From Thermithiobacillus tepidarius DSM 3134 (lineage in GTDB: Bacteria > Pseudomonadota > Gammaproteobacteria > Acidithiobacillales > Thermithiobacillaceae): a stretch of 58,315 nucleotides of DNA. The DNA lies in contig NZ_AUIS01000015.1 in assembly GCF_000423825.1 (NCBI RefSeq), positions 1-58,315 of the forward strand, read 5' to 3'. Positions 16,452 through 57,197 of the stretch are shown here, one piece after another; position 1 is the stretch's first letter, and each line of letters starts with the position of its first letter. Below the pieces are notes generated by a model. That model saw only the letters and a list, made by a program, of their open reading frames with translations. It did no database searches and had not been told where the DNA came from. Made by a program: the position numbers and the translations under genes.

Positions 16452-16455
16452 AGCC

Positions 16456-17725: not shown

Positions 17726-17742
17726 GCCGAAAATTCATCGGC

Positions 17743-17776
17743 AAAAACCCGCTTCTGCCAAGGCAGGAGCGGGTTT
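17743..17776 (-). terminator. Terminator at the cas2-proximal end of the CRISPR array
   Basis: AAACCCGCTTCTGCC (17745-17759) and GGCAGGAGCGGGTTT (17762-17776) form a 15-bp stem with one G-T wobble and a 2-base loop. On the minus strand it is followed by a run of T (17743-17747), so it would end transcription of the array, which reads on the minus strand, before cas2. In the plus direction it may also end the cas operon. Confidence 0.7.
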
Positions 17777-17787
17777 CCGAGAAGGGC

Positions 17788-18219: not shown

Positions 18220-18248
18220 CCCGCAAAAGGGCGTCGCTGTGTTTTTTA

Positions 18249-22326: not shown

Positions 22327-22411
22327 GTATCGCTATGACCCGTGAAAAGTGAAAGCCGGGGCGTGAACGGCCGCCCCTTTCACGAATCGCCGTCCCTGCC
22401 CCTCCGCCCGC

Positions 22412-23796
<1,385 letters not shown>

Positions 23797-23800
<4 letters not shown>

Positions 23801-26627: not shown

Positions 26628-27976
26628 GCGGCCTCCTTTTCGAGCACCGCGTAGAAAAAGCCATCCATGCCGTCGGCGCCGGGCAACACCTGCCCCGTCC
26701 CCGGCAACGCCAGGCAGCGGGCATCGGCATGGCTGGCGCAGAAGGCGGCGATCTGCTCGGCATTCTCCGTAGGCAGCACGCTGCAGGTGGCGTAGACGAA
26801 GCGCCCGCCGGGCCGGAGCAGGGGCCAGAGGGCCGCCAGCAGCGCCCGCTGCCGGGCCGCCAGCGCCGGGATGTCCCCGGCGCGGCGCAGCAGCTTGATG
26901 TCCGGATGGCGGCGGATCACGCCGGTGGCCGAGCAGGGGGCATCCAGCAGGATGCGATCGAAGGGCACGCCGTCCCACCAGGCGTCCGGCTGCGCGGCAT
27001 CGGCGGCGATCAGGCGGGCTGCCGGCAGGCCGAGGCGCTGCAGGTTTTCGCGGATCTGTCCCAGGCGCCGCGCGGAGATGTCCACCGCCCACAGGTCAAG
27101 GTCCGCCAGTTCCAAGAGGTGCGCGGTCTTGCCACCGGGGGCGGCGCAGGCGTCCAGCACGCGCTCGCCCGGCTGAGGGTTCACCAATGGAGCTGCTAAC
27201 TGGGCCGCGCCGTCCTGCACCGAAACCCAGCCCTCGCGCCAGCCCGGCAAGCTTTCCACCGCGACCGGGGCGTCCAGCACCACGCCCGCCGCCGTCCGCG
27301 CCTGGCCTTGGGCCGCGAAGCCGGCTGCGGCCAGGTGCGCCAGATAGGCTTCGCGGGCCAGCCGGCGGCGGTTGACGCGCAGCACCAGCGGCGGATGGGC
27401 GTTGTTGGCCGCCAGCACGGCCGGCCAGTCCTCGGGATAGGCCGTCTGCAGCGCCTCGACCAGCCATTGCGGGTGCGAGCTGGCCACCGCCGGCCCCATG
27501 CCGTCCAGGCGCGCGTCCAGCGCCGCGCGCTCGCGCAGGTAGCGGCGCAGCACGGCGTTCACCAGGCCGCGCGCCCAATCCTTGTCCAGCTGGGCGGCCA
27601 GGGCGACGGCCTCGTTGACGCTGGCCGGCGCGGGCGCGCGCGACGCCTGCAGCTCGTAGAGGGCGACCAGGAGCAGGGCCTTGAGATCCTGATCGCGCGC
27701 CTTGAGCGGCTTGTCCAGCAGCAGGTCCAGCAAGGCCTCCAGCCGCTGCGCCCAACGCGTGGCATTGTAGGCGAGCCACTGGGCCTGGCGCTGATCGCGG
27801 GCGGACAAGCCCTGCAGCTGCAGGGCGTCATCCAGGGATCGGCCCGCCCACACCTGCTGCAGGGCCAGGGCCGCGCGCAGCCGGGCCGAGGCGGGCGGAG
27901 CGGAAGACGTTGCCACGGGTCGTGCGGAGTCCTGCCGGGCGGGCTTCAGCGGGCGCCGGGCCGGGGGCAAGCTCAC
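26624..27976 (-). CDS. rsmB: 16S rRNA m5C967 methyltransferase RsmB
   Basis: A 450-residue enzyme that methylates C967 of 16S rRNA. An N-terminal NusB-like RNA-binding domain (about 30-160) comes before the Fmu methyltransferase domain. [16 protein letters not shown] is the SAM motif, [19 protein letters not shown] the motif IV Pro-Cys, and [15 protein letters not shown] the catalytic Cys of motif VI. It overlaps htpX by 4 bases (ATGA). The N-terminus carries about 25 extra low-complexity residues. Confidence 0.94.
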
Positions 27977-28845
27977 GCCACCCCCATGTCCCGGGCGATG
28001 TAATGCAGTCGCTCGATGCGTTCGCCGGTATTGGGATGGGTTGCAAACAGCCGCATGATGTCCTCGCCGCGCAGCGGGTTGACGATCATCATCTGCGCCG
28101 TGGTCGGATGCGCCTCGGCGCCGGCGAGCGGCACCTGGTGGGCGGCCTGCTCGATCTTTTCCAGCGCCGCGGCCAGGGCCAGCGGATCGCCGGAAATCTC
28201 CGCCCCGCCGCGGTCGGCGCCGAACTCGCGGGTGCGGGACACGGCCATCTGGATCAGCATGGCCGCCACCGGGGCCAGGATGATCACCAGCATGGCGCTG
28301 AACACGCCCAGCACGCCGTTGTTCTCGCGCTGCTGGCCGCCGAAGAGCATGGACAACTGGCCGAACTGGGCCAGGGCGGCAATGGCGCCGGCCACCGTGG
28401 CCGCCAGGGTGGAAATCAGGATGTCGCGGTGGCGGACGTGGGCCAGCTCGTGCGCCAGCACGCCGCGCAGCTCACGCGCGCTCAGGAGGCGCAGGATGCC
28501 GCTGGTGACCGCCACCGCCGCGTGCTGGGGATTGCGGCCGGTGGCGAAGGCGTTGGGCGCGTCATCGGGAATGATGTAGACCCGCGGCATGGGCAGGCCG
28601 GCCCGCTCGGACAGCTCGCGCACGACGCGGTAGAGCTGCGGCGCGCCGTGCTCGTCCACCTCCTGGGCGTTGTACATGCGCAGCACCATGCGATCCGAGG
28701 ACCAGTAGGCCCACAGGTTGGTGCCGGCGGCGAAGAGCAGGGCGATCAGCATGCCGGTCTGGCCGCCCAGGGCACCGCCGACCAGCATGAAGAGCGCGGT
28801 CAACGCGGCCATCAGGAGCGTCGTCTTAAACCAGTTGCTCAGCAT
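27973..28845 (-). CDS. htpX: Membrane zinc protease HtpX
   Basis: A 290-residue inner-membrane metalloprotease for damaged membrane proteins. His132, Glu133 and His136 in [12 protein letters not shown] form the zinc site HExxH. Two helices lie at about 8-25 and 30-48 and two more behind the active site (about 150-205). Location between fmt and rsmB is unusual compared with Pseudomonas, where rsmB follows fmt directly, but it is known in some gammaproteobacteria. Translation is coupled to rsmB by ATGA. Confidence 0.93.
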
Positions 28846-28858
28846 GGTTGCCTCCTGC

Positions 28859-29830
28859 TCAAGCGGAAGGGGCGGCCGGACTGCCCAAAAGCTCGCCCGG
28901 TTCCGGACGGTAGCCGTTGATGAAATCGCCGATCTCCACCGGCGCCTTGCCGGGCATCTGCACCTTCTGCAGGGCCAGGGCGCCGTCGCCGGTGGCCACC
29001 CAGAGATTGCCGGCGTCCGCGCGCATGATGGTGCCGGGCAGCGCCGCGGGCAGGCCGGTGGGCGGGATCGGCCGGGCCTCCCAGATGCGCAGCGTCTTGC
29101 CGCGGAAGCGGGTTTCCGCCACCGGATAGGGATTGAAGGCGCGCACCAGGCGGTCCAGATCCGCCGCGGCGAGCTGCCAGTCCAGCAAGGCTTCCGCCTT
29201 CTTCAGCTTGGGCGCGTAGGTGGCGCGCTCGTGATCCTGCGGCTCCGGATGCAGCCGGCCGTCCCACAGCCGGTCCAGGGCCTCGCGCAGCGCCTCGGCG
29301 CCGAGCTGCATGAGCTTGTCGTGCAGGCTGCCGCCGGTCTCCCGCTCCTCGATGGGCAGGCGCCGCACCCACAGCACGGGCCCGCTGTCCAGCCCCCGCT
29401 CCATCTGCATGATGCTGATGCCGGTCTCCGTCTCGCCCTGCTCGATGGCGCGCTGGATCGGCGCCGCCCCGCGGTAGCGGGGCAGCAGGCTGGCGTGGAT
29501 GTTGATGGCGCCCAGGCGCGGAATGTCCAGGACCGCCTGCGGCAGCAGCAGGCCGTAGGCCACCACCACCATCAGATCCGGCTGCAGCGCCCGCAACTGC
29601 GCCTGCACCGCGGCATCCCGCAGCGTGGTCGGCTGCAGCACGGGCAGCCCGTGGGCCACCGCCGTGCGCTTGACCGGGCTCTCGGCGACGGCGCGACCGC
29701 GCCCGGCCGGGCGATCCGGCTGCGTCAGCACGGCCACCACCTCCTCCGGGCCGCGCAGCAGGATCTGCAGCGGCGGCACGGCGAACTCGGGGGTGCCGGC
29801 GAAAATGACGCGCCTGCCGCCCGCGGCCAT
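28859..29830 (-). CDS. fmt: Methionyl-tRNA formyltransferase Fmt
   Basis: A 323-residue enzyme that formylates initiator Met-tRNA using formyl-tetrahydrofolate. [18 protein letters not shown] is the N-terminal motif, [20 protein letters not shown] the folate-site SLLPxYRG signature, and the C-terminal OB-like domain follows after about 210. def lies just upstream, 4 bases away, and both act on the formyl group at the start and end of its life, a very common gene pair. Confidence 0.95.
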
Positions 29831-29834
29831 GGAC

Positions 29835-30338
29835 CTAGCCCGCCTGCCGCTGACGCTTGGTCAGCTTCTTGCGGATGAGATTCTGCTTCAGGCGCGACAG
29901 GTGCTCCACGAAGATGCGCCCGTGCAGATGGTCGATCTCGTGCTGCAGGCACACGGCCAGCAGGCCATCGGCCTCCAGCTCCAGCGGCTTGCCCTGCAGG
30001 TCCTGGGCGCGTACCTTGATCCGCTCGGCCCGTTGCACGAGTTCGTAGACGCCGGGCACGGACAGGCAGCCTTCCTTCATCTCCTCGATGCCATGGGCCT
30101 CGATGATTTCCGGGTTGACCAGGGTCAGCAGTTCGTTGCGGTTTTCGGAGATATCCACCACGATCAGCTGCTGGCCCGCGGCCACCTGCGGCGCGGCCAG
30201 GCCGATGCCGGGCGCGTCGTACATGGTTTCGGCCATGTCGTCGGCCAGCCGCAGGATATCCTTATTGACCCGAACGATGGGCGTGGCCGGGCGGTTCAGG
30301 CGCGGATCCGGGTATTCCAATATATCGAGCAATGCCAT
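29835..30338 (-). CDS. def: Peptide deformylase Def
   Basis: A 167-residue metalloenzyme that removes the formyl group from new proteins. All three motifs are present: GIGLAAPQV, EGCLSVPG and QHEIDHLHG, with Cys and two His binding the metal. The start MALLDILEYPDPRL at 30338 agrees with the family; the frame is open upstream to 30401 but that would add a non-conserved stretch. It is the first gene of the minus-strand operon and is divergent from the ABC transporter genes. Confidence 0.95.
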   Translation of the reverse strand: MALLDILEYPDPRLNRPATPIVRVNKDILRLADDMAETMYDAPGIGLAAPQVAAGQQLIVVDISENRNELLTLVNPEIIEAHGIEEMKEGCLSVPGVYELVQRAERIKVRAQDLQGKPLELEADGLLAVCLQHEIDHLHGRIFVEHLSRLKQNLIRKKLTKRQRQAG

Positions 30339-30484
30339 TTTTTCGGTCTCGCAATGCAGAATGATCGTGCCGGCCGCATCCCGGCCAAGGCACAGTTTCA
30401 ACTTAGATTCGCATAGAATAGTTTTTGCTTCAAAGTTTAGCCTATTTGGCGCCGCTTTTTCAGGACCTTTCGGGAGTGCTTCGC
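30339..30484. promoter_or_regulatory. Divergent promoter region between def and the ABC genes
   Basis: This AT-richer gap must hold promoters for both directions. On the plus strand TAGAAT (30414-30419) is a fair -10 box without a clear -35. GGGAG (30472-30476) is the ribosome site for the ATPase gene. I could not assign the def promoter with confidence. Confidence 0.35.
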
Positions 30485-31164
<680 letters not shown>

Positions 31165-31168
<4 letters not shown>

Positions 31169-33696
31169 ATCCGCGTGAGGCGCTGTCCGGCTGGGCGCTG
31201 CTGTGGCAGGCGGCGGTGCTGGGCTCCCTGCGCCGCAATCTCGGGCGCGCCGCTCTGAGCGTGCTGGGCATCGCCTTCGGCGTGGCGCTGGGGGTCGCCG
31301 TGACCCTCATCAACGGCGCGGCGGTGAACGAGTTCAGCCAAGCGGTGCGCAGCCTGTCGGGGGAGGCGGACCTGGTCCTGCGCGGGCCGCGCGCGGGCTT
31401 CCCCGAAAGCCTCTATCCGCAACTGGCCCGCGACCCGCAGGTGGCCCTGGCCAGCCCGGCGGTGGAGGTGGAGGCCACGCTGCCGGGGCGCGACGCCACC
31501 CTCAAGCTCGTCGGCCTGGACCCGTTCCGCGCCCTGCGCCTGCAGCCCATGCTGCTGGCCCCGGCCGGCATGGACGAGGATGATCTGCTGGCGCCCGACG
31601 TGGTCTTCCTGAGTCAGGAGGCGGCCCGCTGGCTCGACGTGCGGCCGGGCGACCGGCTGGTCATCCAGGTGGGACTTCGCGCGCGGACGCTGCGGGTCGG
31701 CGGCCTGCTGCCGGCGGCCGGGCCGCGCCAGCGCCTCGGGGTGATGGACATCGCCGGCGCGCAGTGGTTCCTGGGGCGGGTCGGCCGGCTCGACCGCGTC
31801 GACCTGCGCCTGCGGCCCGGCGTGGACCCGGCCGCCTTCCAGGCGCGCTGGCAGTCGCGCCTGCCGGCCGGTTTGACGCTCGCTCCGCCCCAGGCCGCCG
31901 GCCAGCGCGCCGAGAATCTGTCGCGCGCCTATCGGGTGAACCTCACCGTGCTGTCCCTGGTGGCGCTCTTCACCGGCGCCTTCCTGGTCTTCTCCACCCT
32001 GGCCATGGCCGTGCTGCGCCGGCGCGCGCAACTGGCCCTGCTGCGCGTGCTCGGGGTGACGCCGCGCGGCCTGGTGCTGCTCCTCCTCGGCGAGGGCCTG
32101 CTCATCGGCCTCGTCGGCGCGGCCCTCGGCCTCGCCCTCGGCGTGGGCCTGGCCGCCGCCGGCCTGCAGCTCCTGGGCGGTGACCTGGGCGGCGGCTACT
32201 TCCAGGGCGTGCGCCCGCAATTGCAGCCGGACGCGGGCACTCTGTTCATCTTCTTCGCCTTGGGCGTGGGCGTCGCCCTCCTTGGCGCCCTGGCCCCGGC
32301 CCTGGAGATGGCCCGCACGGCGCCGGCCCCGGCGCTTCGGGGCGGCGACGTGGAACGCGCCCTGGGGCGCCTGCACCGGGCTTGGCCGGGCCTGCTGCTG
32401 CTCGGCCTCGGCCTGCTCGCCACCCGCGCCCCGCCGGTGCGCGATCTGCCGCTCTTCGGCTATCTCGCCATCGCCCTGATGCTCGTCGGGGTGGTGCTGC
32501 TGATGCCCACCCTGCTCGGCGGGATCACCCGCCGCCTGCCGCTGCCCGTCGCCGCGCCGGCGCAGATCGCCGTGGCCCAGTTGCGCGGCGCGCCGGGGCA
32601 GGCGGCTGTGGCGGTGGCCGCCATCGTGGTCAGCTTCAGCCTGATGGTATCCATGGCCATCATGGTGGCCTCCTTCCGCCAGTCGGTGGACGACTGGCTC
32701 GGCCAGGTGCTGCCCGCCGACCTCTACCTGCGCGCCAACCAGACCCTGGGCTCGGCCTTCTTCGCGCCGGCGGACCAGGCCGTCATCCGCGCCACGCCCG
32801 GGGTGCGCGAGGTGCAGTTCCTGCGTGCCCAGGACCTGCTGCTGGCCCCCGACAAGCCGGCGGTGGCGCTGCTGGCCCGCGATCTCGATCCCGCGCGGAT
32901 CGGCGCGCATCTGCCGCTGCTCGACGGTCCGCTGGCGCCGCCGGCGGGCGGTCCGCCGCCCGTGTGGATCTCGGAGGCGGTGCAGGACCTCTACGGCTAC
33001 CGTCCCGGCCAGATCGTCCACCTGCCCATCGCCGGCCGGCAACACGCCTTTTTCGTGGCCGGCGTGTGGCGCGACTACGCGCGCCAGTGGGGCGCGATCG
33101 TGCTGGAGCGGCCGCTCTACCGGCGCCTGAGCGGCGACGACGGCGCCAGCGATGCGGCCATCTGGCTCACGCCCGGGGCGACGCCGCAGGGGGTGATCGC
33201 GGCCCTGCGCGCGCGCCTGCCCCTGGGGCGGCAGGTGGAGATGCGGGTGCCGACCGAGATCCGCCAGATCAGCCTGGCCATCTTCGACCGCAGCTTCGCC
33301 GTCACCTACGTGCTGGAGGTGGTGGCCATCCTCATCGGCCTCTTCGGCATCAGCAACAGCTTCAGCGCCCAGGTGCTGGCGCGGCGCGGCGAGTTCGGCA
33401 TGCTGCGCCATCTGGGCATGGACCGGCGCCAGATCGGCGCCATGCTGGCCACCGAGGCGGGCATCGTCGGCGCGCTGGGCGTGGGCGTCGGCCTGCTGCT
33501 CGGCTGGGTGATCAGCCTGATCCTGATCTTCGTGGTCAACCGCCAGTCCTTCCACTGGAGCATGGACCTGCACCTGCCCGGGCCGCTGCTGGCGGGTCTG
33601 GCCGGGCTGCTGGTGCTGGCCGCCACCCTGACCGCCGTGGGGAGCGCGCGCCAGGTCATGGGCCGGGACATCGTGCGCGCGGTGCGGGAGGAATGA
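31165..33696 (+). CDS. FtsX-fold ABC permease (AttG-like)
   Basis: An 843-residue membrane protein with two MacB/FtsX repeats. The first helix (RAALSVLGIAFGVALGVAVT) is followed by a periplasmic domain and a set of three helices near 250-380, then a second set near 400-500, a second periplasmic domain and three last helices (about 705-830). Such permeases do mechanical work on lipids or lipoproteins rather than classical import. It is coupled to the ATPase upstream and to the CrtC-like protein downstream by ATGA overlaps, the arrangement of the attEFGH-type gene sets. Confidence 0.85.
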
Positions 33697-34790
33697 TGGC
33701 GTCCGGCCGCCGCCCCGCGAAGCGCAGCCGGCGGCTGGCCGTACTCGTCTTGCTGCTGCCGCTGGCCATGGCCGCCCAGGCGGCGCCGGTGCATTACCCG
33801 CCGGTGCTGCCCGGCGCGGCCCTGCGCTTTCCGGCCGACCAGGGCAGCCATCCGGCCTTCCGCACCGAGTGGTGGTATGTCACCGGCCGCCTGGAAAGCG
33901 ACGCGGGCCCGCTCGGCTTCCAGATCACCTTCTTCCGCAGCCGCCCGTCCCGGGACTGGCCCAATCCCAGCGCCTTCGCGCCGCGCCAACTGCTCTTCGC
34001 CCACGCCGCCCTGGCCGACCCGCGTCAGAGCCGGCTGCTGCACGACGAGCGCGCCGCCCGCACCGGCTTCGGTCTGGCCGAAGCCCTGGCGGGCCGCACG
34101 GCGGTCTGGATCGACGATTGGTCCCTGCAGCAGACGGGCGCCGGCTATCGCGCCCGCATTCCGGCCAAGGACTTCACCCTGGAGCTCACCCTGACCCCCA
34201 GTCAGCCCATCCTGCTGCAGGGCGACGCCGGCTTCAGCCAGAAGAGCCCCGAGCGCCTGGACGCCAGCTATTACTACAGCCAGCCGCAGCTGCGCGTCAC
34301 CGGCACCGTGCTGCGCCAGGGCCGGCGGCTGCCGGTGCAGGGGCGGGCCTGGCTCGACCACGAGTGGTCCAGCCGCGTCCTGCACCGCGAGGCGAGCGGC
34401 TGGGACTGGCTGGGCCTCAATCTGGACGACGGCGGGGCGCTGATGCTCTTTCGCATCCGTGATGCCCGGGGCGGCGTCCTCTGGGCCGGCGGCACCCACC
34501 GGGACGCCGCCGGCCGCCGCCGCAGCTTCCGGCCCGACGAGATCCGCATGACGCCCGTCACCCACTGGACCTCGCCGCGCACCCGGGTGCGCTACCCCGT
34601 GGCCTGGGACGTGCGCGTTCCCGGCCTGCAATTCCGCCTGCAACCGCTCATGGCCGATCAGGAGCTGGACGCCCGCGCCAGCACCGGCACCATCTACTGG
34701 GAGGGCGCGGTGGATGCCGTGCAGGACGGCCGCCGCCTCGGCCAGGGCTATCTGGAGCTGACCGGCTACGGCCAGCGCCTGCGCATGTAG
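33693..34790 (+). CDS. Secreted CrtC/AttH-like lipocalin-fold protein
   Basis: A 365-residue protein with an N-terminal signal peptide (LAVLVLLLPLAMAAQAAP). HPAFRTEWWYVTGRLES, GFQITFFRSRP, and RAWLDHEWSS with DWLGLNLDDG are typical for the CrtC/AttH family (carotenoid 1,2-hydratase-like, two lipocalin-type barrels). It lies behind an FtsX permease, as in the att genes of Agrobacterium. A role in envelope lipid handling is plausible; hydratase action on carotenoids is unlikely because no carotenoid genes are near. ATG 33693 overlaps the permease stop; ATG 33696 is a possible start with slightly better spacing to GGGAGGA. Confidence 0.82.
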   Translation: MMASGRRPAKRSRRLAVLVLLLPLAMAAQAAPVHYPPVLPGAALRFPADQGSHPAFRTEWWYVTGRLESDAGPLGFQITFFRSRPSRDWPNPSAFAPRQLLFAHAALADPRQSRLLHDERAARTGFGLAEALAGRTAVWIDDWSLQQTGAGYRARIPAKDFTLELTLTPSQPILLQGDAGFSQKSPERLDASYYYSQPQLRVTGTVLRQGRRLPVQGRAWLDHEWSSRVLHREASGWDWLGLNLDDGGALMLFRIRDARGGVLWAGGTHRDAAGRRRSFRPDEIRMTPVTHWTSPRTRVRYPVAWDVRVPGLQFRLQPLMADQELDARASTGTIYWEGAVDAVQDGRRLGQGYLELTGYGQRLRM

Positions 34791-34887
34791 GGCATGTGTT
34801 TTCGGGAAAATGTGCTAATTTGGGACAATAAGCCGGGAGCCGCGCGCGGCTCCTACAAAGCAGATAAAAACACCACAAAGGACTGTC

Positions 34888-35955
34888 ATGCTGCGCCACC
34901 TGAAGCCCCTTGCCCTGGCTAGCCTGAGCCTGGCCCTGCTTGCCCCCGCCCCGACCCCCGCCGCCCCCCGCGACGGCGGCGACCGGCTCCGCATGGTGCC
35001 GGGCCGTCACCTGCCTTATGAATACGTGGTGAAAAAGGGCGACACCCTCTGGGACATCGCCGCCCGTTTTCTGAAGAATCCCTGGCAATGGCCGGAGATC
35101 TGGGAGCGCAACTCCTACATCACCAACCCGGATCTCATCTATCCCGGCGACCTGCTGGTCTTCGACCAGCGCGACGGCATGCTCAAGCTCAAGGTGGTGC
35201 GTGCCGGCCCGCAGGCGCGCGCGCTGCCCCTGGAAGCCATCCCCACCGTGCGCGCCGAGCTGATCCTGCCCTTCCTCAACCGCCCCGGCATCGCCACCGA
35301 CGAGGAGCTCAAGCACCTGCCCTACGTGCTGGCCAGCAAGGACGCGCGAGTCATCTTCGGCCAGCATGACGTGGTCTATGCCCGCGGCTTCGACGCCGAT
35401 GCCGCTCAGCGCTACGACGTGGTGCGCCTGGGACCCGAGCTGGTCGACCCAGGCAGCCGGCGGGTGCTGGGCCACCGGCTGGATCACCTGGGCGTGGCCG
35501 AGGTGCTGGACGACGGCCCGGTACGGCGCCTGCGCATCGTCGAGGCTTACCAGGAAATCCGCCCCGGCGACCGGCTTCTGCCGCAGCCGGCCAGGACCGG
35601 GCTGCACTTCATGCCGCGGGCGCCGGCGCAGGCGGTCAACGGTGTCCTCTTCGCGGCGGAGCAGAGCGTCAACGAGCTGGGGCAGGGCGCGGTCGGCATC
35701 ATCAACCTGGGCACCCAGGCGGGCGTGGAGCCGGGCCAGGTGCTCACCGTCTACCGCAGCGGCCGCCGGATCGACGACCCGGTCACCGGCAAGCCCGTGG
35801 TCCTGCCCGAAGAGGCCATCGGCACCGTCATGGTGTTCCGGCCCTTTGCCCGGGTGAGCTACGTGCTGGTCATGGACAGCATCCAGGCCATCCGCCTCGG
35901 CGACAGCGTGCGCAGCCCGGCGGCGGGCGAGCGGCAAGCCCGACTGGAGCGCTAA
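34888..35955 (+). CDS. LysM domain envelope protein
   Basis: A 355-residue exported protein. A signal peptide (LALASLSLALLAPAPTPAAP) is followed by a LysM domain at about 45-92 (YVVKKGDTLWDIAARFLKNP to YPGDLLVF) which binds peptidoglycan, and a long C-terminal region with a repeated PxxPxR-type barrel of unknown role. The gene stands before dprA, the same order as in Pseudomonas and many other gammaproteobacteria. A hairpin GGGAGCCGCGCGCGGCTCC precedes it in the 97-base gap. Confidence 0.85.
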   Translation: MLRHLKPLALASLSLALLAPAPTPAAPRDGGDRLRMVPGRHLPYEYVVKKGDTLWDIAARFLKNPWQWPEIWERNSYITNPDLIYPGDLLVFDQRDGMLKLKVVRAGPQARALPLEAIPTVRAELILPFLNRPGIATDEELKHLPYVLASKDARVIFGQHDVVYARGFDADAAQRYDVVRLGPELVDPGSRRVLGHRLDHLGVAEVLDDGPVRRLRIVEAYQEIRPGDRLLPQPARTGLHFMPRAPAQAVNGVLFAAEQSVNELGQGAVGIINLGTQAGVEPGQVLTVYRSGRRIDDPVTGKPVVLPEEAIGTVMVFRPFARVSYVLVMDSIQAIRLGDSVRSPAAGERQARLER

Positions 35956-35960
35956 GCCTC

Positions 35961-37070
35961 ATGGCCTTGGCCGACTGGCTCGCCTTCAACCGCCTGCCCG
36001 GGGTGGGACAGCGCGGCCGGCTGGCGCTGCTGGCCCAGTTCGACGAGCCGGCACGGCTTTTTGCGGCGGGCAGCGGCGCCTGGCGGGCGGCCGGGCTGGG
36101 CGGCAAGACGCTGGAGGCCCTGCAGGGCGGTCCGGCGGCCCTGCTGACCGAGGACGATCGCGCCTGGCTGGCGCAGGCCGACACCGAGGTGCTCACCTGG
36201 AACGATCCGGACTATCCGCCGCTGCTGCGCGAAGTGCCGGACGCCCCGGTGGTGCTGTATCTGCGCGGCCGGCGCGAGCTGCTCGGCAGTCCCATGCTGG
36301 GCGTGGTGGGCAGCCGCAGCCCCACGCCGAGCGGCGCGGCCACGGCCCAGGCCTTTGCCGAGCACCTGAGCCTGGCGGGCCTGAGCATCGTCAGCGGCCT
36401 GGCCGCCGGCATCGATGCCGCCGCCCACCGCGGCGCCCTGGCCGGCTCGGGCCGCACCATCGCGGTCATGGGCACCGGTCCGGATCGCATCTATCCGCGC
36501 CAGCACCATGAACTGGCCCGGCAGATCGCCGCCACCGGCCTGCTGATCAGCGACTACCCGCCGGGCACGCCGGTGCGGGCCAGCCAATTTCCCCAGCGCA
36601 ACCGCATCATCAGCGGGTTGAGCTACGGCGTGCTGGTGGTGGAGGCGGCCCTGCAGAGCGGCTCGCTCATCACCGCCCGCTTGGCGGCGGAGCAGGGGCG
36701 CGAGGTCTTCGCCATCCCCGGCTCCATCCACTCGCCCCTGAGCCGCGGGCCGCACAAGCTGCTGCGCGAAGGCGCCAAGCTGGTGGAGACCGCCCAGGAC
36801 GTCCTGGAGGAGCTCGGCCCCCTGCACGGGGCCCTGCAGGCCGCCGTCGGGAACGGCCCGGCCGCTGCGGCCACGGCGGCGCCGACGGACCCGGAACAAG
36901 CACAACTGCTGGGGGTCTTAGCTTATGATCCTCAGCCCTTTGATCTGATCGTCAAGCACAGTGGATTGACGCCCGACAGGGTTTCCGCCATGCTTCTAAA
37001 CATGGAGTTGGACGGTTGGGTCGCCAGCTGCCCCGGAGGGCGCTACTGCCGTGTGCCACGGGGCGCCTAG
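35961..37070 (+). CDS. dprA: DNA processing protein DprA
   Basis: A 369-residue single-strand DNA-binding protein that loads RecA on incoming DNA in natural transformation. After a SAM-like N-terminal part, the Rossmann-type core has VGSRSPTPSGAATAQAFAEH, SGLAAGIDAAAHRGAL and MGTGPDRIYPRQH, followed by FPQRNRIISGLSYGVLVVEA, all conserved. A winged-helix domain ends the protein (about 300-369). It starts 5 bases after the lysM gene. Confidence 0.94.
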   Translation: MALADWLAFNRLPGVGQRGRLALLAQFDEPARLFAAGSGAWRAAGLGGKTLEALQGGPAALLTEDDRAWLAQADTEVLTWNDPDYPPLLREVPDAPVVLYLRGRRELLGSPMLGVVGSRSPTPSGAATAQAFAEHLSLAGLSIVSGLAAGIDAAAHRGALAGSGRTIAVMGTGPDRIYPRQHHELARQIAATGLLISDYPPGTPVRASQFPQRNRIISGLSYGVLVVEAALQSGSLITARLAAEQGREVFAIPGSIHSPLSRGPHKLLREGAKLVETAQDVLEELGPLHGALQAAVGNGPAAAATAAPTDPEQAQLLGVLAYDPQPFDLIVKHSGLTPDRVSAMLLNMELDGWVASCPGGRYCRVPRGA

Positions 37071-37072
37071 AG

Positions 37073-37094
37073 CTTGCTCCCCTTGGGGAGCAAG
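37073..37094 (+). terminator. Perfect palindrome after dprA
   Basis: CTTGCTCCCCTTGGGGAGCAAG is a 22-bp perfect inverted repeat two bases after the dprA stop. It has no T run, so it may be a processing or pausing hairpin between dprA and smg rather than a full terminator. Confidence 0.4.
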
Positions 37095-37162
37095 GCCATG
37101 CCACACCTTCTTTGCTTCACCTTGTCGCACCGCAGCATAGACTCAACCTGGAGGGTCCGCAC

Positions 37163-37642
37163 ATGAAAGAGAACGTCCTGGATATCCTAATGTATCTCTT
37201 CGAGAATTATATGGACGAAGACGAGGCGGACGCCCCCGATCAGGAGAGCATCGAGGCGGAGCTCCACGCGGCGGGCTTCCCGCAGTCGGACATCAACAAG
37301 GCCCTGACCTGGATCGAGGGCCTGGCGGAAATGCAGAGTGCGCCCATGCGCCTGGGCCAGAACACGGGCTTTGCCCTGCGTCACTACAGCTCCGTGGAAA
37401 ACCGCAAGCTGGGCCTGGAATGCCAGGGTTTCCTCATTTTCCTGGAGCAGACCGGGGTCATCGACCAGCACCTGCGCGAGACCATCATCGATCGCGTCAT
37501 GGCGCTGGATAGCGACGAAATCGATCTGGAGCAGCTCAAATGGGTCATCCTCATGGTGCTGTTCAACCAGCCCGGCCGCGAGGAGGCCTACGTCTGGATG
37601 GAAGAGTTGATCTTCGATGAGTCGCGCGGCTATCTGCACTGA
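37163..37642 (+). CDS. smg: Smg family protein
   Basis: A 159-residue acidic protein of the Smg (DUF494) family, which is almost always found between dprA and topA. MKENVLDILMYLFENYMDED is the conserved N-terminus, so ATG 37163 is the start; the longer frame upstream is not conserved. GFPQSDINKALTWIEGLAEM and the C-terminal half are helical. The biochemical role is not known with certainty; links to DNA processing or translation are proposed only from neighbours. Confidence 0.9.
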   Translation: MKENVLDILMYLFENYMDEDEADAPDQESIEAELHAAGFPQSDINKALTWIEGLAEMQSAPMRLGQNTGFALRHYSSVENRKLGLECQGFLIFLEQTGVIDQHLRETIIDRVMALDSDEIDLEQLKWVILMVLFNQPGREEAYVWMEELIFDESRGYLH

Positions 37643-37714: not shown

Positions 37715-40228
37715 ATGAGCAAACGTCTGGTGGTGGTCGAATCGCCGGCCAAAGCCAAAACCATCAACAAGTATCTGGGGCCGGACTACAAGGTGCTGGC
37801 CTCCTACGGCCATGTGCGCGATCTGGTGCCCAAGGAAGGGGCGGTCGATCCGGCGCACGATTTCGCCATGCGCTACGAGATCATCGACAAGAACAAGCGT
37901 CACGTGGACGAGATCGCCAAGGCGCTGCGCGCGGCCGACGAGCTGCTGCTCGCCACCGACCCGGATCGCGAGGGCGAGGCCATTTCCTGGCATCTGGCCG
38001 AGCTGCTGAAGGACAAGGGCCTGCTCAAGAGCAAGCCGGTGCAGCGGGTGGTCTTCCATGAAATCACCAAGAACGCCATCCAGCAGGCCATCCAGCAGCC
38101 GCGCGCCATCTCCCAGGAGCTGGTCAACGCCCAGCAGGCGCGCCGCGCGCTCGACTACCTGGTGGGCTTCAACCTGTCGCCGCTGCTGTGGCGCAAGGTG
38201 CGCCCCGGGCTGTCCGCCGGCCGCGTGCAAAGCGCCGCCCTGCGTCTGATCGTCGAGCGCGAGCAGGAGATCGAGGCCTTCCAGACGCGCGAGTACTGGA
38301 CCATCGAGGCGGACCTGCGCCACGCCGGCCAGGACTTCGAGGCCCGGCTGATCCAATGGGACGGCAAGAAGCTGGAGCAGTTCGACATTGCCGACGCGGA
38401 CCGCGCCGAAATGATCCGCCAGCGGCTGGAGGCCGATTGCAAGCGCGCGCCGCTGCGCGTGCTCAAGGTGGAAAAGAAGCAGCGCAGCCGCCAGCCGGCC
38501 GCGCCCTTCACCACCTCCACCCTGCAGCAGGAGGCGGCGCGCAAGCTGGGTTTCTCCGCCAGCCGCACCATGCGCGTGGCCCAGCAGCTCTATGAGGGCG
38601 TCAGCCTGGCCGAGGGCGCCGTGGGCCTCATCACCTACATGCGTACCGACGCCGTCAACCTGGCCCAGGAAGCGATCGGCGAGATCCGCGCCCTGATCCA
38701 GCGCCGCTACGGCGCCGACTACCTGCCCGACAGCCCGCGCGTCTACAAGACCAAGGCCAAGAACGCCCAGGAGGCCCACGAGGCGATCCGCCCCACCAGC
38801 GTCCAGCGGTTGCCCGAGGAACTGCGCGGCCAGCTGGCGCCGGATCAGTGGAAGCTCTACGAACTCATCTGGAAGCGCACCGTCGCCTGCCAGATGGCGC
38901 CGGCCAGGATCGACACCGTGGCCGTGGACCTCGGCACGGATGCGGACTGGCTGCTGCGCGCCAACGGCTCCAGCATCGCCTTCCCGGGCTTCATCAGCGT
39001 CTACCAGGAGGGCGTGGACGACGTGGCCGAGGAGGGCGGCCGCATCCTGCCGCCGCTGCAGGAAGGCGACCGGCCGGCGCTGCGGGCCATCCGTCCCGAG
39101 CAGCACTTCACCGAACCGCCGCCCCGCTACTCGGAAGCGACCCTGGTCAAGACCCTTGAGGCCTACGGCATCGGCCGGCCCTCCACCTACGCCAGCATCA
39201 TTCAGACCCTGCTCAACCGCGAGTACGTGGAGCTGCTGCAGAAGCGCTTCCATCCCACCGACGTGGGCCGCGTCGTCAACAAATTCCTGGTGGAGCACTT
39301 CGACCGCTACGTGGATTACGGCTTCACCGCGCAGATGGAGGACGACCTGGACGCCGTCTCGCGCGGCGAGAAGGACTGGGTGCCGCTCATGCGCGAGTTC
39401 TGGGACCCCTTCCACCAACGGGTGGAGGAGAAAGCCCAGAGCGTGAGCCGGGCGGAGGTGACGAGCGAGGTGATCGAGGAGGCCTGCCCCAAGTGCGGCA
39501 AGCCGCTGGCCATCAAGCTCGGCAAGCGCGGGCGCTTCATCTCCTGCACCGGCTACCCGGAGTGCGACTACGCCCGGCCGCTGCTGAGCGAGGTGCAGGC
39601 CGAACCCGAGCCGGTCGGCCGCGACTGCCCCGACTGCGGCAAGCCGCTGCTCTACAAGCTGGGGCGCTACGGCAAGTTCATCTCCTGCAGCGGCTACCCC
39701 GAGTGCAAGCACATCGAGCCGCTGGAAAAACCCCAGGGCACCGGCGTCGCCTGCCCCGCCTGCGGCAAGGGCGAGCTGCAGGCCAAGAAAAGCCGCTACG
39801 GCAAAGTCTTTTACTCCTGCAGCACCTACCCGGCGTGCAGCTACGCCGTCTGGGATCCGCCGCTGGCCGAGCCCTGCCCCAAATGCGGCGGCAAGATCCT
39901 GACCCTGAAGACCACCAAGCGCTGGGGCGAGGAGAAGGTCTGCCCGGACCGGAGCTGCGGCTACCGGGTGCCGGCCGACGCCACGCCCGAGCAGATCGCC
40001 GCCGCCGTGGCCAAGCCGCGGCCGGTGCTCCCGGCAGAGGCAGCCGAAGGCGGCAAGGGCCAAGGCAAAGCCGCCGGCAAGGCCGTCCGCGCGGGTACCA
40101 AAACCGGCACGAAAGCCGTTGCCAAAACCGCGAAGGCAACCCCCAAAAAGGCGGCGGGCAAACGTAGCACGGCCGCAGGCAAGGCGCCGCGCGGCCGCAA
40201 GACCGGCGGGACCGCCTCCGCCGGCTGA
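37715..40228 (+). CDS. topA: DNA topoisomerase I
   Basis: An 837-residue type IA topoisomerase that relaxes negative supercoils. The TOPRIM domain starts RLVVVESPAKAKTINKYLG and has DPDREGEAISWHL; Tyr308 in ITYMRTDAV is the DNA-linking residue. Four Cys4 zinc units follow at the C-terminus (CPKCGKPLAIKLGKRGRF, CPDCGKPLLYKLGRYGKF, CPACGKGELQAKKSRYG and CPKCGGKILTLKTTK). After these there is a tail of about 70 residues rich in Lys and Ala with KKAAGKRSTAAGKAPRGRK, like a histone H1 tail, which probably binds DNA. A terminator lies just after the gene. Confidence 0.95.
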   Translation: MSKRLVVVESPAKAKTINKYLGPDYKVLASYGHVRDLVPKEGAVDPAHDFAMRYEIIDKNKRHVDEIAKALRAADELLLATDPDREGEAISWHLAELLKDKGLLKSKPVQRVVFHEITKNAIQQAIQQPRAISQELVNAQQARRALDYLVGFNLSPLLWRKVRPGLSAGRVQSAALRLIVEREQEIEAFQTREYWTIEADLRHAGQDFEARLIQWDGKKLEQFDIADADRAEMIRQRLEADCKRAPLRVLKVEKKQRSRQPAAPFTTSTLQQEAARKLGFSASRTMRVAQQLYEGVSLAEGAVGLITYMRTDAVNLAQEAIGEIRALIQRRYGADYLPDSPRVYKTKAKNAQEAHEAIRPTSVQRLPEELRGQLAPDQWKLYELIWKRTVACQMAPARIDTVAVDLGTDADWLLRANGSSIAFPGFISVYQEGVDDVAEEGGRILPPLQEGDRPALRAIRPEQHFTEPPPRYSEATLVKTLEAYGIGRPSTYASIIQTLLNREYVELLQKRFHPTDVGRVVNKFLVEHFDRYVDYGFTAQMEDDLDAVSRGEKDWVPLMREFWDPFHQRVEEKAQSVSRAEVTSEVIEEACPKCGKPLAIKLGKRGRFISCTGYPECDYARPLLSEVQAEPEPVGRDCPDCGKPLLYKLGRYGKFISCSGYPECKHIEPLEKPQGTGVACPACGKGELQAKKSRYGKVFYSCSTYPACSYAVWDPPLAEPCPKCGGKILTLKTTKRWGEEKVCPDRSCGYRVPADATPEQIAAAVAKPRPVLPAEAAEGGKGQGKAAGKAVRAGTKTGTKAVAKTAKATPKKAAGKRSTAAGKAPRGRKTGGTASAG

Positions 40229-40512: not shown

Positions 40513-42045
40513 TTAAGCAGGCTTGTCGCTGCTCACGGCATAACGTGGGTCTTCGAGAATGTTTACCTCCACCAGATCGCCCGCCTTAGCCAGCAACTGC
40601 CGACACTCGTGGCTCAGGTGGCGCAGATGCAAGGTTTTATCGGCCTTTCCGTAGCGCTCGGCCAGGGAATCGATAGCTTCGATGCCGGAATGGTCGGCTA
40701 CGCGCGCATGCCGGAAATCAATGATTACATTCCGGGGATCGTTGCGTGGGTCGAAGAGCTCGTGGAAATGCTGCACCGAACCAAAGAACAGCGTGCCGTG
40801 CAACTCGTAAATCTTGCTACCCTGCCCGTCGACGGTGGCCTTGGCCCGGATGCGTTTGGCGTGCTCCCAAGCGAAGACCAGCGCGGAAACGATCACGCCG
40901 GTGATCACGGCGATGGCAAGATCGGTTAGCACGGTCACCACGGCCACCAGTAGGCCCACGAAAATGTCGGCGCGCGGCACACGGCAAAAGAGGCGCAGGC
41001 TGCCCCACTCGAAGGTACCGATGACCACCATGAACATGACACCCACCAAGGCAGCCAGCGGAATCATTTCGATCAGATCCGAGGCCAGCACGACGAAAGC
41101 CAGCAGGAAAAGGGCGGCCACGATACCCGACAGCCGGCCACGGCCGCCGGACTCCACGTTGATCATGCTCTGGCCGACCATGGCGCAGCCGCCCATGCCG
41201 CCGAAAAAGCCGGTGACCGTGTTAGCCACGCCCTGGCCAATACAAACACGGTTGCCATCACCACGGGTCTCGGTCAGCTCGTCGATCAGGGTCATGGTGA
41301 GCAGGGACTCGATCAGGCCGATGGCAGCCAGCACCAGGGAATAGGGCAGGATGATCCACAGCGTTTCCAGCTCAAGCGGCACCATGGGAATATGAAAAGC
41401 TGGCAGGCCGCCGGCGATGGAGGCCAGGTCACCCACCGTGCGGGTGTCGAGCTGCAGGCCAAGGACCAGAAGAGTGACGGCGGCGATGGCAGCCAGCGAG
41501 GCGGGCACGGCGCGCGTCAGGCGCGGCAGGAAATAAGCAATGGCCATGGTTAGCGCCACCAGTGCCAGCATCAATCCCAGCTCCGCGCCGTGCATCCAGA
41601 CCTTGCTGCCGTCGGCGCCGGGCACCTTGAACTGCTCCAGCTGCGCCAGGAAGATCACGATTGCCAAGCCGTTGACAAAGCCCAGGAACACCGGATAGGG
41701 CACCATGCGGATGAATCTGCCGATCTTGAGAAAGCCGGCCAGGATCTGAAAGAGACCCATGAGCACCACGGTAGCGAACAGATATTCCACCCCGTGCTGA
41801 GCTACCAACGCCACCATGACCACCGCCAGGGCACCCGTGGCACCCGAGATCATGCCGGGACGCCCGCCCATGGCGGCGGTGATCAGACCGACCAGAAAGG
41901 CGGCGTAGAGGCCGACCAGCGGATGTACTCCCGCGATCAGGGCAAAGGCCACGGCTTCCGGCACCAATGCCAGCGCAACGGTGAGACCAGACAGGATTTC
42001 GGACTTCAGATTGATGGGCGAGTTTTTGCTTATCAGATCAAACAT
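40513..42045 (-). CDS. SulP family inorganic anion transporter with STAS domain
   Basis: A 510-residue membrane transporter. [20 protein letters not shown] is the conserved first helix of SulP carriers, and about ten to twelve helices follow up to residue 390. A cytoplasmic STAS domain lies at the C-terminus (about 400-500, [15 protein letters not shown] and [16 protein letters not shown]). The substrate could be sulfate or bicarbonate; the length and the compact STAS domain resemble bacterial BicA-like and DauA-like carriers, but no residue decides it. It is alone in its unit. Confidence 0.85.
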
Positions 42046-42901
42046 GCTTCTCTCCTGCTCGTTTTCTCATGTCGTAAACGGCGGCAACCGCGCGTCCAGC
42101 ATCGTGGCTTGAAGACGGATTCGGCCGTCCGGACCGGCGGCAGGCCCGCCTTGGCGAGTGATGGCGCCTGCGGCCTTGCCGAGGGGTTCCGCGTGCGCAA
42201 TGAGCTCGGGGAGTCATGCTGAAACTGCATTCTTTTTCTCCTTGTCAATGCCGCTGGGCCGCGGAACGCGTCGACGATCAGACGCACGGGGCCGCGATGC
42301 GGCCCATGGTGCTCTGGTGCGGGGCCCAGACTATCTCAAGGCTGTGGTGTTGCCGATGAGTCGAAAAGCAGGGCGCCAGCGCAGAATGCTTGCGCCCGCC
42401 CGGATGCGGGGCCGCTCGCTCAGGAGCAGCAGAGGAAAAGGATGGATGGTCTACATGTCGCAGCGCAGTATACCAGCCGGGAGAGGCAGAGACAAAGCCC
42501 GGAACTGCTCGTTGCGCGCGTTAGCGTACAGGAGGGCGGCGCGTAGTCCAGCAAGGATCCCTGCCATGGCGTCAGACTGGCACGCCTCGTCTGGCATGCC
42601 GGCGCCCCGGGCCACGGATTGCGCCGGCCAGCACCCGCCACCGGCTTGATGGACCTGGCCGCCCAGCACCCACGCCCCCCGGTTCCACGTGGAACACAAA
42701 CACCGCGACCCGGCCGGAACATCGACTTTGCGAGATCTCAGAGCGACGACGGCACCCCCGCATCGCCCAGCCCATGGATTCAAAAATTTTGAGCCACTTT
42801 GCCAAAAACCTTCGCTATCAGTTACCTAATCCCCCTCGTATCATAACCCCTATCGATCAACCGCAGTGAACATCCTGGAAAGCTCCAGCAAGGAGGGCAT
42901 C
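42046..42901. other. Intergenic stretch of about 850 bases with one parS site
   Basis: Open frames here (for example plus 42158-42649 and minus 42420-42722) have no recognisable motif, poor ribosome sites and biased compositions, so I do not support a gene. The one clear signal is the parS sequence at 42681. The pirin ribosome site is near its end. Confidence 0.5.
42681..42696. other. Centromere-like parS site
   Basis: GGTTCCACGTGGAACA; its reverse complement TGTTCCACGTGGAACC equals the parS sequence known for Pseudomonas chromosomes. The inner 14 bases are a perfect palindrome. ParB loads at such sites near the replication origin to organise chromosome segregation. The same 16 bases occur again at 51058. 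parA and parB are not in the window. Confidence 0.85.
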
Positions 42902-43600
42902 ATGATCACCCTGCGCAAGGCCCATGAGCGCGGCCGCTCCCAGCATGGCTGGCTGGACAGCCGCCACAGCTTTTCCTTTGCCGGCTACCATGATCCCGCG
43001 CACATGGGCGTCTCCCGGCTGCGCGTCATCAACGACGACCGCGTGGCGCCGGGGGCCGGCTTCGGGGCCCATCCGCACCGCGACATGGAGATCATCAGCT
43101 ACGTGCTGGAAGGTGCGCTGGAGCACAAGGACAGCCTGGGCAACGGCTCGGTGATCCGGCCCGGCGACGTGCAGCGCATGAGCGCGGGGCGCGGCGTGGT
43201 CCACAGCGAGTTCAACGCCTCCCAAAGCGAGCCGGTGCATTTCCTGCAGATCTGGATCGAGCCGGATCGCCGCGGCATCGAACCTGGTTACGAACAGAAG
43301 CGCTTTGCCGATGCCGACAAGCGCGGCCGCTTCCGCCTGCTGGCCTCGCCCGATGGGCGCGACGGCTCCGTCCGCATCCACCAGGACGCCCGCCTCTACG
43401 CGACCGTGCTGGCGGCCGGCGAAGCGGCTGAACTCGAAGCCGCGCCGGGCCGTCAGATCTACCTGCACGTGGCCCGCGGCACGGTGGAGAAAGACGGCGT
43501 GCACTTGGCGGCCGGCGACGGCGCCGCCATCCGCGAGGAAACCCGCATCCGCCTCATCGCCCGCGAGCCGGCCGAAGTGCTGCTTTTCGATCTGCCCTGA
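42902..43600 (+). CDS. Pirin family protein (YhhW-like)
   Basis: A 232-residue bicupin. The N-terminal cupin has HPHRDMEIISYVLEGALEH and GRGVVHSEFN, giving the metal ligands His, His, Glu/His of the pirin family. WLDSRHSFSFAGYHDPAHMG is the conserved start. YhhW-type pirins show quercetinase activity or redox-sensing roles. The ribosome site AAGGAGGG is 5 bases before ATG 42902. It lies 21 bases ahead of the azoreductase gene and is likely in the same unit, suggesting a common role in quinone or electrophile handling. Confidence 0.9.
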   Translation: MITLRKAHERGRSQHGWLDSRHSFSFAGYHDPAHMGVSRLRVINDDRVAPGAGFGAHPHRDMEIISYVLEGALEHKDSLGNGSVIRPGDVQRMSAGRGVVHSEFNASQSEPVHFLQIWIEPDRRGIEPGYEQKRFADADKRGRFRLLASPDGRDGSVRIHQDARLYATVLAAGEAAELEAAPGRQIYLHVARGTVEKDGVHLAAGDGAAIREETRIRLIAREPAEVLLFDLP

Positions 43601-49118: not shown

Positions 49119-50228
<1,110 letters not shown>

Positions 50229-50237
50229 GAGGGGCGC

Positions 50238-51086
50238 ATGAGCACCGCACTGGAACTGCTGGCCGAGCACAAAAGCTTCGGCGGGGTGGTGCGCTACTGC
50301 CGCCACCCCTCGCAAAGCTGCAACGCGCCCATGCGCTTTGCCGTCTACCTGCCGCCGCAGGCGACGGCCGGGCCGGTGCCGGTGCTCTACTATCTGGCCG
50401 GCCTGACCTGCACCGAAGAGACCTTCATGATCAAGGCCGGCGCCCAGCGCTACGCCGCCGAGCACGGCATCCTGCTGGTCGCCCCCGACACCAGTCCGCG
50501 CCACACCGGCATCCCCGGCGAGGATGATGACTGGGACTTCGGCAGCGGCGCCGGCTTCTACCTGGATGCCAGCGCCGCCCCCTGGTCCGCCCACTACCGC
50601 ATGTACAGCTACGTCACCGACGAACTGCCCGCCCTCGTCGCCGAGCACTTCCCGGCCGATCCGGTGCGCCAGAGCATCTTCGGCCACTCCATGGGCGGCC
50701 ACGGCGCCCTCGTCTGCGCCCTGAAAAACCCGGGGCGCTACCGCTCCGTTTCCGCCTTCGCGCCCATCGGCGCGCCCATGCACAGCCCCTGGGGCGAGAA
50801 GGCGTTTTCCGGCTATCTCGGCGCCGACCGGGACGCCTGGCGCGCCTGGGACGCCAGCGAGCTGGTGCGCGGCACCCAACTGCCCACGCCGATCCTGATC
50901 GACCAGGGCACCGCCGACCAGTTCCTGGAGACCCAGCTCAAGCCGGAACGCTTCGAAGCCGCCTGCCAGGCCGCCGGCCAGGCGCTGATCCTGCGCCGCC
51001 AGCCGGGCTACGACCATAGTTACTACTTCATCGCCAGCTTCATGGAAGAGCATATGCGGTTCCACGTGGAACACCTGACGGCCTGA
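50238..51086 (+). CDS. fghA: S-formylglutathione hydrolase
   Basis: A 282-residue esterase that splits S-formylglutathione into formate and glutathione. Ser151 in FGHSMGGHGA is the nucleophile and His260 in PGYDHSYYFIASFMEEH the catalytic base; the Asp lies near 228 in IDQGTADQFL. CTEETFMIKAGAQRYAAEHG is family typical. It follows frmA in one unit. Its last codons (about residues 274-279) contain an exact parS site at 51058-51073. Confidence 0.96.
   Translation: MSTALELLAEHKSFGGVVRYCRHPSQSCNAPMRFAVYLPPQATAGPVPVLYYLAGLTCTEETFMIKAGAQRYAAEHGILLVAPDTSPRHTGIPGEDDDWDFGSGAGFYLDASAAPWSAHYRMYSYVTDELPALVAEHFPADPVRQSIFGHSMGGHGALVCALKNPGRYRSVSAFAPIGAPMHSPWGEKAFSGYLGADRDAWRAWDASELVRGTQLPTPILIDQGTADQFLETQLKPERFEAACQAAGQALILRRQPGYDHSYYFIASFMEEHMRFHVEHLTA
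51058..51073. other. Second exact parS site, inside fghA
   Basis: GGTTCCACGTGGAACA is identical over 16 bases to the site at 42681. It lies within the last codons of fghA, encoding part of RFHVEHL. Other fghA genes do not require this base choice, so the site seems embedded in coding sequence. Two equal 16-mers within 8.4 kb are very unlikely by chance. Confidence 0.8.
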
Positions 51087-55562: not shown

Positions 55563-55967
55563 ATGCCCACGGCTCCACACGCCTCGCCCGCCGACCGCAA
55601 GCGCCTGAGCGACGCCGCCCTGCGCGCCTTCTTCGACATCGCCGAGCACTGGCGCCTGTCCCGCCAGGAAGCCATGACCCTGCTGGGCATCGACGCGACC
55701 TCCACCTACGCCAACTGGAAGGCGGGGCGGGCCGGCGCGCTGCCGCGCGATACCCTGGAGCGCATCTCCTACCTGCTCGGCATCCACAAGTCCCTGCGCA
55801 TCCTCTTTGCCCGGCATCCCGAGTCCGTCTACGCCTGGGTGCGCAAGCCCAACGACGCGCCGCTCTTCGGCGGACGCTCGGCCCTGGAGCGCATGCTCTC
55901 GGGGCAGGTGAGCGATCTCTTCCTGGTGCGCCAGTACCTCGACGCCCAACGCGGCGGCTGGACGTGA
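55563..55967 (+). CDS. Xre/MbcA/ParS-type antitoxin (module 1)
   Basis: A 134-residue protein with an N-terminal helix-turn-helix (about 20-55, SRQEAMTLLGIDATSTYANW) and a C-terminal toxin-binding domain of MbcA/ParS/Xre type (DUF2384), with LERISYLLGIHKSLRILFA and PLFGGRSALERMLSG. It should neutralise the RES protein encoded next and repress the promoter. GGAGGG is 6 bases before ATG. The stop is overlapped by the toxin start (GTGA). Confidence 0.85.
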   Translation: MPTAPHASPADRKRLSDAALRAFFDIAEHWRLSRQEAMTLLGIDATSTYANWKAGRAGALPRDTLERISYLLGIHKSLRILFARHPESVYAWVRKPNDAPLFGGRSALERMLSGQVSDLFLVRQYLDAQRGGWT

Positions 55968-56653
55968 GCGCCGAGTGGGAGGCGCTCGCGCCGATCCCGG
56001 TCGGGCCCCTGCGCACTTACCGGCTGGTGCCCACCGCCCACCCGGCCATCGACCTCTTCGCCGATCTGGAGCACGTCAGCCCAGCGGAGTGGGATCTGCT
56101 CTACGAGCTGGAAGCCCTGACCAACCCGCGCATGCGCGACGCGCGCGGCGAGATCGTCCTGGTGCCCAAGGACGAGCGCGTCTACGGCGAGGGCGCCTCC
56201 TATGTCATGGCCGCCTTCACCCACCTTAACCCGCGCGGCAGCCGCTTCAGCGACGGCAGCTTCGGCGTCTACTACTGCGCCGAAGCCGAGGAGACCGCCG
56301 TGCGCGAAGTCGCCTTCCACGCTGCCCGCTTTCTCGCCAGCACCAGCGAGCCGGCGCAGACCCTGGCCATGCGCAGCATCGGCGCCACCCTGGCGGGCAG
56401 CGCCTACGACCTCCTCGATCAGCCCTGGCCCTGGCTGCGCGGCGAGGACTACGCCCCCTGCCAAGCCCTGGCCCGCCACGCGCGGGGCCGGGTGGACCTG
56501 CTGCGCTACGACAGCGTGCGCCACCCCGGCCACGCCGCCTTCGCCGTCTTCCGCCCCAAGGCCCTGCGCCAGGCGCAGCACCTCAAATACGTGGAACTCT
56601 ACTGGAACGGCCAGCGCTTCACCCACGCCGCCGACATCAGCCTGGAGCTGTGA
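55964..56653 (+). CDS. RES domain toxin (module 1)
   Basis: A 229-residue RES domain protein. TYRLVPTAHPAIDLF, GSRFSDGSFGVYYCAEAEET and LLRYDSVRHPGHAAFAVFRP are typical RES segments, with conserved Arg, Glu and Ser of the ART-like active site. RES proteins such as MbcT and Res destroy NAD in the cytoplasm and stop growth. The GTG start at 55964 overlaps the antitoxin stop (GTGA). It is longer than the module-2 toxin and has an N-terminal extension, so it belongs to a different subgroup. Confidence 0.85.
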   Translation: MSAEWEALAPIPVGPLRTYRLVPTAHPAIDLFADLEHVSPAEWDLLYELEALTNPRMRDARGEIVLVPKDERVYGEGASYVMAAFTHLNPRGSRFSDGSFGVYYCAEAEETAVREVAFHAARFLASTSEPAQTLAMRSIGATLAGSAYDLLDQPWPWLRGEDYAPCQALARHARGRVDLLRYDSVRHPGHAAFAVFRPKALRQAQHLKYVELYWNGQRFTHAADISLEL

Positions 56654-56704: not shown

Positions 56705-56737
56705 TTGACATTTGTCTAATATAATAAAGACAAATAT
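56705..56737 (+). promoter_or_regulatory. Promoter-operator of the second Xre/RES module
   Basis: ATTTGTCT (56710-56717) and AGACAAAT (56728-56735) form a perfect 8-bp inverted repeat with TATAAT (56720-56725) in between. The distance from ATTTGT to TATAAT is the same as in module 1 (10 bases). TTGACA at 56705 is only 9 bases from TATAAT and cannot be its -35 partner; the true -35 is weak. Confidence 0.65.
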
Positions 56738-56756
56738 CACCCAAAGGAGACGTGCC

Positions 56757-57197
56757 ATGTTCGATGAACGCAGCATCAGCGTGCTCCTGGGCGGTGTCCG
56801 CGTTTTCGGCCGGGAAATTGACAACCCGCTGGAGTTCGCCGACCGCATCCACGCCGGCTTTCCGCGCGCGGCCCTCGACGCCATCAAGCACCTGATCCAG
56901 CTCAATGACAGCGAGGCCTCGGAACTCATCGGCGTCAACGCCCGCACCCTGGCCCGCTGGCGCGGGGATCCGGAAAAGCCCCTATCGCCGCTGGCCAGCG
57001 ATCGGCTCTACCGCCTGGCCCGCGTATTCGCCCTGGCGGAGGAGGTATTGGAGGACGAAGACAGCGCCCGGGACTGGCTGCGCACGCCCCAGCTCGGCCT
57101 GGACAATCGCGTCCCCATGGAACTGCTCACCAGCGAAGCCGGCACCCGCGAAGTGGAGAACCTGCTCAAGCGCATCGAGCACGCGGTCTATTCGTGA
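56757..57197 (+). CDS. Xre/MbcA/ParS-type antitoxin (module 2)
   Basis: A 146-residue protein. A helical N-terminal part (FGREIDNPLEFADRIHAGFP) is followed by the Xre-type domain (SEASELIGVNARTLARWRG) and the DUF2384 toxin-binding domain, including RLYRLARVFALAEEVLEDED and DWLRTPQLGLDNRVPMELLT. The last segment is the usual loop that plugs the RES active site. ATG 56757 has AAGGAGA before it; its stop overlaps the toxin start. Confidence 0.9.
   Translation: MFDERSISVLLGGVRVFGREIDNPLEFADRIHAGFPRAALDAIKHLIQLNDSEASELIGVNARTLARWRGDPEKPLSPLASDRLYRLARVFALAEEVLEDEDSARDWLRTPQLGLDNRVPMELLTSEAGTREVENLLKRIEHAVYS

Follow-up and report, generated by a model that had tools for sequence, protein, structure and literature searches.

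Two identical parS sites near topA and within fghA very probably mark the origin region of Thermithiobacillus tepidarius

In ParABS systems, ParB dimers load at parS and spread from there, and ParA moves the resulting complex, with the origin region separating first. The presence of two identical parS-like 16-mers on one contig of Thermithiobacillus tepidarius DSM 3134 raises the question of whether they are the chromosomal centromere sites of this bacterium and, if so, whether the contig lies close to the origin of replication. The window analyzed here, a stretch of 58,315 nucleotides, is the whole of that contig (C13) in a draft genome of 2,958,498 bases in 43 contigs, the published description of DSM 3134T giving 2,958,498 bp, 43 scaffolds and 66.84% G+C (PMC5037610).

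The first 16-mer, GGTTCCACGTGGAACA (42681-42696, not assigned to a strand), is located in the 820-bp gap separating a divergent pair of genes, encoding a SulP-family transporter (40513-42045, minus strand; PF00916, TIGR00815) and a pirin-family protein (42866-43600, plus strand; PF02678, PF17954). The transporter gene lies between this site and topA, encoding DNA topoisomerase I (37715-40228, plus strand; TIGR01051), the end of which is 2,453 bp upstream of the site. The second 16-mer (51058-51073, likewise not assigned to a strand) falls within the last codons of fghA, encoding S-formylglutathione hydrolase (50238-51086, plus strand; TIGR02821, 469 bits, above the cut-off), where it is read in the frame R-F-H-V-E-H. 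A gene for a class III alcohol dehydrogenase (49119-50228) is located upstream of fghA, and together the two constitute the usual formaldehyde pair. The original prediction, that the first site equals a known parS and is followed by a second exact copy about 8.4 kb away, proved accurate: the copies are spaced 8,377 bp apart, and the reverse complement of GGTTCCACGTGGAACA is exactly TGTTCCACGTGGAACC, the sequence of Pseudomonas aeruginosa parS1 and parS4 (PMC4368675), which differs from the perfect-palindrome parS2 and parS3. Both copies are 16-bp palindromes of the TGTTYCACGTGRAACA type with one mismatch to the perfect palindrome TGTTCCACGTGGAACA, and they were the only matches to it when the whole window was scanned at up to three mismatches. 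Shuffled windows yielded a mean of 0.11 matches at this threshold and two or more in 0 of 100 shuffles, and base composition predicts only 0.00018 exact 14-base cores GTTCCACGTGGAAC per window and 0.009 per genome; a chance origin of both copies was rejected on these grounds. As their flanks cannot be aligned beyond 18 common bases (CGG...CAC), a recent duplication is not apparent either.

Across the 2.96-Mb genome, GTTYCACGTGRAAC was found at up to one mismatch at exactly three places, all with zero mismatches: the two sites on C13 and one in recF on contig C19. These three sites compare with 0.02 expected from base composition, and the reversed pattern, used as a control on the same genome, matched once at up to one mismatch and once at up to two. 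The third site, GGTTCCACGTGAAACA (C19:4913-4928), is situated within about 4 kb of dnaA and carries a synonymous TTT for TTC in its F-H-V-E codons. Along with this site, C19 carries dnaA, dnaN, recF, gyrB, yidC, mnmE, rsmG, parA and parB, as well as a gene that, from its sequence, we take to be mnmG. A search of the genome for the HTH_ParB family retrieved one match (C19 20469-20768, 9.3e-38), which belongs to a chromosomal ParB (C19:20112-20957) with ParA encoded directly upstream, and a cognate chromosomal ParA and ParB are thus both present. The best structural matches of this protein are chromosomal ParB (7bnk, 9.4e-62), and its counterparts of R173 and G201, as mapped by eye on the alignment, are R and G. 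These two residues are reported to make contact with parS or to be conserved among ParB proteins, with Q and R in their place in Noc (PMC7383237); the C19 protein retains the residues that select parS.

To what extent does this place the window near oriC? The left neighbour of topA is a block of genes (20950-37642, assigned by Pfam and synteny) comprising trkA, an ntrY-like kinase, rsmB, an M48 peptidase, fmt and def on the minus strand and an ABC transporter, LysM, dprA and smg/DUF494 on the plus strand, most of which accompany topA in the vicinity of dnaA in the sister family too. Elsewhere on the contig we observed an RND efflux operon on the minus strand (6648-12550; membrane fusion protein, AcrB-type pump and outer membrane factor) and a type II CRISPR-Cas locus (13263-18224) with cas9 (13263-16451), cas1 (16456-17400) and cas2 (17393-17725) on the plus strand, after which comes a repeat array (about 17786-18224; period 66 bp). 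The right end of the contig (55563-57661) carries two tandem pairs of an Xre/MbcA-type antitoxin and a RES-domain toxin (55563-55967 with 55964-56653, and 56712-57197 with 57194-57661).

We compared seven sister-family genomes consisting of few contigs (G004, G005, G015, G018, G019, G021 and G022, picked from 29 listed). In all seven, topA is on the dnaA contig and transcribed towards dnaA, with a zero-mismatch parS 355-412 bp downstream of it, and every zero-mismatch site in this set, 14 of 14, is at a distance of 10-50 kb from dnaA. In G005, G019 and G022, lysM-dprA-smg-topA and rsmB-fmt-def occur together. Counter to this pattern, one of the sites with one mismatch, in G005 (1,514,495), is far from dnaA, and another, in a genome of the sister genus within the same family (G001, C3:98683), is unplaced; over the nine genomes scanned at up to one mismatch, 27 sites matched the pattern and 9 its reversed control. 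A scan based on topA covered 80 loci, mostly from distant phyla and many with short flanks, and GTTYCACGTGRAAC was present in one of them. This locus, from a metagenome-assembled genome labelled Betaproteobacteria, has GTTTCACGTGAAAC at 14939 and 21565, which puts the two copies some 3 and 9.6 kb downstream of topA.

Since C13 and C19 are unjoined in the draft, we infer the distance to oriC from these relatives. The two contigs have no common end sequence by which they could be joined, the 21-mers that they share being internal only and shared 31-mers being zero; under a hypothetical join of the right end of C13 to the left end of C19, site 1 and dnaA would be separated by at least 23.9 kb. 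The GC skew of the right half of C13 is weakly negative (-0.049), a value pointing to oriC on the right-hand side, but we give it little weight because C19 has no clean switch at dnaA. Of the means proposed with the original prediction for locating the window, GC skew was thus undecided, and position relative to dnaA, gidA and parAB was answered in part: dnaA, mnmG, rsmG, parA and parB sit with the third site on C19, but the link to C13 is missing. The claim of an origin-proximal region is nevertheless supported by the sister family, with topA and its adjoining parS 10-50 kb from dnaA in matching orientation in seven of seven genomes. By analogy with these genomes, a location of the window far from oriC is strongly disfavoured, and its two sites probably lie tens of kb from the origin.

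The copy inside fghA calls for closer scrutiny, as the core of parS reads F-H-V-E in the fghA frame, and F-H-V-E written in GC-rich codons by itself yields 12 of the 16 parS bases. The site could then be a by-product of coding that requires no selection for ParB binding, an idea with which the R-F-H at the corresponding place in FghA of the sister-genus genome is also consistent. We compared 47 FghA sequences, namely 20 loci and 27 further sequences from the best 30 of 55 matching genomes (299 searched), after dropping three duplicates. The His is followed by A in 40 sequences, by R, S or G in two each, and by V in a single one, the window's own, and the best parS match in the other 46 fghA genes has 5 to 8 mismatches. 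The C-terminal end is EEHMRFHVEHLTA in the window and AEHLRFHAAYLKA in the sister-genus genome, where R-F-H-A-A-Y replaces R-F-H-V-E-H, so that three neighbouring residues differ, as do, by eye, five bases of the corresponding 16-mer. With V confined to the window's FghA and none of the other 46 genes within four mismatches, a coincidence of codons is unlikely, and the identity of the fghA 16-mer to the intergenic copy speaks against it as well; we regard the coding by-product as an improbable account of this copy. The fghA site probably arose through a change in the protein, with drift as a possible alternative, and such a gain argues for selection for the DNA site. Location within a gene is in itself not unusual. 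An exact GTTCCACGTGGAAC was present in 17 of 57 genomes of the class; leaving aside the two of the family itself, the remaining 15 loci, from other families, gave 24 parS sites. Of these, 20 fall within recF as far as it could be aligned, each of them reading F-H-V-E, with at least one recF site in 14 of the 15 loci. Hence parS in coding sequence, and the F-H-V-E frame, are usual here, and P. aeruginosa parS1 and parS2 are also reported to be located in recF (PMC5521831).

Two further readings concern the function of the sites rather than their origin. Bound ParB might chiefly repress sulP and pirin, or fghA and the SDR gene, with a small role in segregation; the location of site 1 between divergent genes would suit such regulation, and excess ParB has been reported to lower expression next to P. 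aeruginosa parS1-4 (PMC5521831). Yet the neighbours that are conserved are topA and the origin region, neither sulP nor fghA, the sister-genus genome has an fghA that lacks the site and lies on a different contig from topA, and any regulation would follow from spreading as a side effect, all of which makes a mainly regulatory role very unlikely. Least probable of all, and hardly credible in our estimation, is that an unrelated protein or a Noc-type factor binds the palindromes and they are not parS. The identification as parS is one of sequence, which leaves some room for this reading, but the 16-mers are identical to P. aeruginosa sites reported as bound in ChIP (PMC5098823). Noc-binding sites (NBS) go with a Noc protein carrying Q173/K179/K184/R201, whereas the sole HTH_ParB match in this genome is the chromosomal ParB beside ParA, with residues of the R173/G201 type.

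We conclude, with a probability of roughly 0.93, that both 16-mers serve the T. tepidarius ParABS system as chromosomal parS sites and, with the third site in recF, mark the origin region. This reading draws on sites that are exact and rare genome-wide, a topA-linked position conserved in the order and a cognate ParA and ParB with parS-selecting residues. By analogy with the ParABS family, each palindrome would serve as a loading site for the chromosomal ParB, a CTP-dependent clamp that would then spread over the flanking DNA, after which ParA would carry the origin region to the daughter halves; ParB binding, spreading and segregation at the T. tepidarius sites are thus to be expected. A bolder and rather doubtful proposal is that selection keeps the neighbourhood of parS and topA across the order despite a change of the core from TTTCACGTGAAA to TTCCACGTGGAA, as ParB loaded there might cause the partition complex to cover topoisomerase I or its gene, and that the fghA copy, gained by altering a mostly conserved C-terminal alanine, is a centromere site overriding protein sequence.

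On the whole the parS cluster is ordinary apart from two features of modest note, its conserved place beside topA and the copy in fghA, and the remaining picture agrees with what is known of ParABS. Our literature search returned no title on parS in Acidithiobacillales, and an earlier prediction may exist in older comparative surveys. The analysis identifies the likely centromere region of Thermithiobacillus; the position of parS beside topA, conserved in Acidithiobacillales, aids the ordering of draft contigs around oriC, and the fghA copy would be a small example of a DNA-binding site shaping protein sequence.

Among the closest known systems is that of P. aeruginosa, in which one high-affinity parS near oriC is reported to suffice (PMC4368675) and parS has to be positioned inside a zone of some 650 kb surrounding oriC, parS1 and parS4 being bound in ChIP (PMC5098823). 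The three T. tepidarius sites are in keeping with this scheme, and the two species have in common an identical 16-mer (on the other strand), a site in recF and a small number of sites, which in T. tepidarius too would be of high affinity and near oriC; T. tepidarius differs in having two sites on the far side of topA, of which one is inside fghA, and a single recF site. The sister family likewise has a site downstream of topA and the same gene block, in its case in the origin region, but its core is mostly GTTTCACGTGAAAC and lies 355-412 bp from topA rather than 2,453 bp, and its second site is found between rsmB and ntrY in G019 and G022 and about 1.8 kb further from topA in G004, G005 and G021. 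Pattern searches of the sister-family genomes examined returned no recF site, unlike T. tepidarius with its one. The sister-genus genome is closer in this respect, with a recF site on its dnaA contig (C6) at the same offset (412) as in T. tepidarius, although its copy is one mismatch from the palindrome. It too has two sites on its topA contig (C5), downstream of topA, but these form a tight pair 12.5 kb beyond the gene, and its fghA, on another contig, has no parS.
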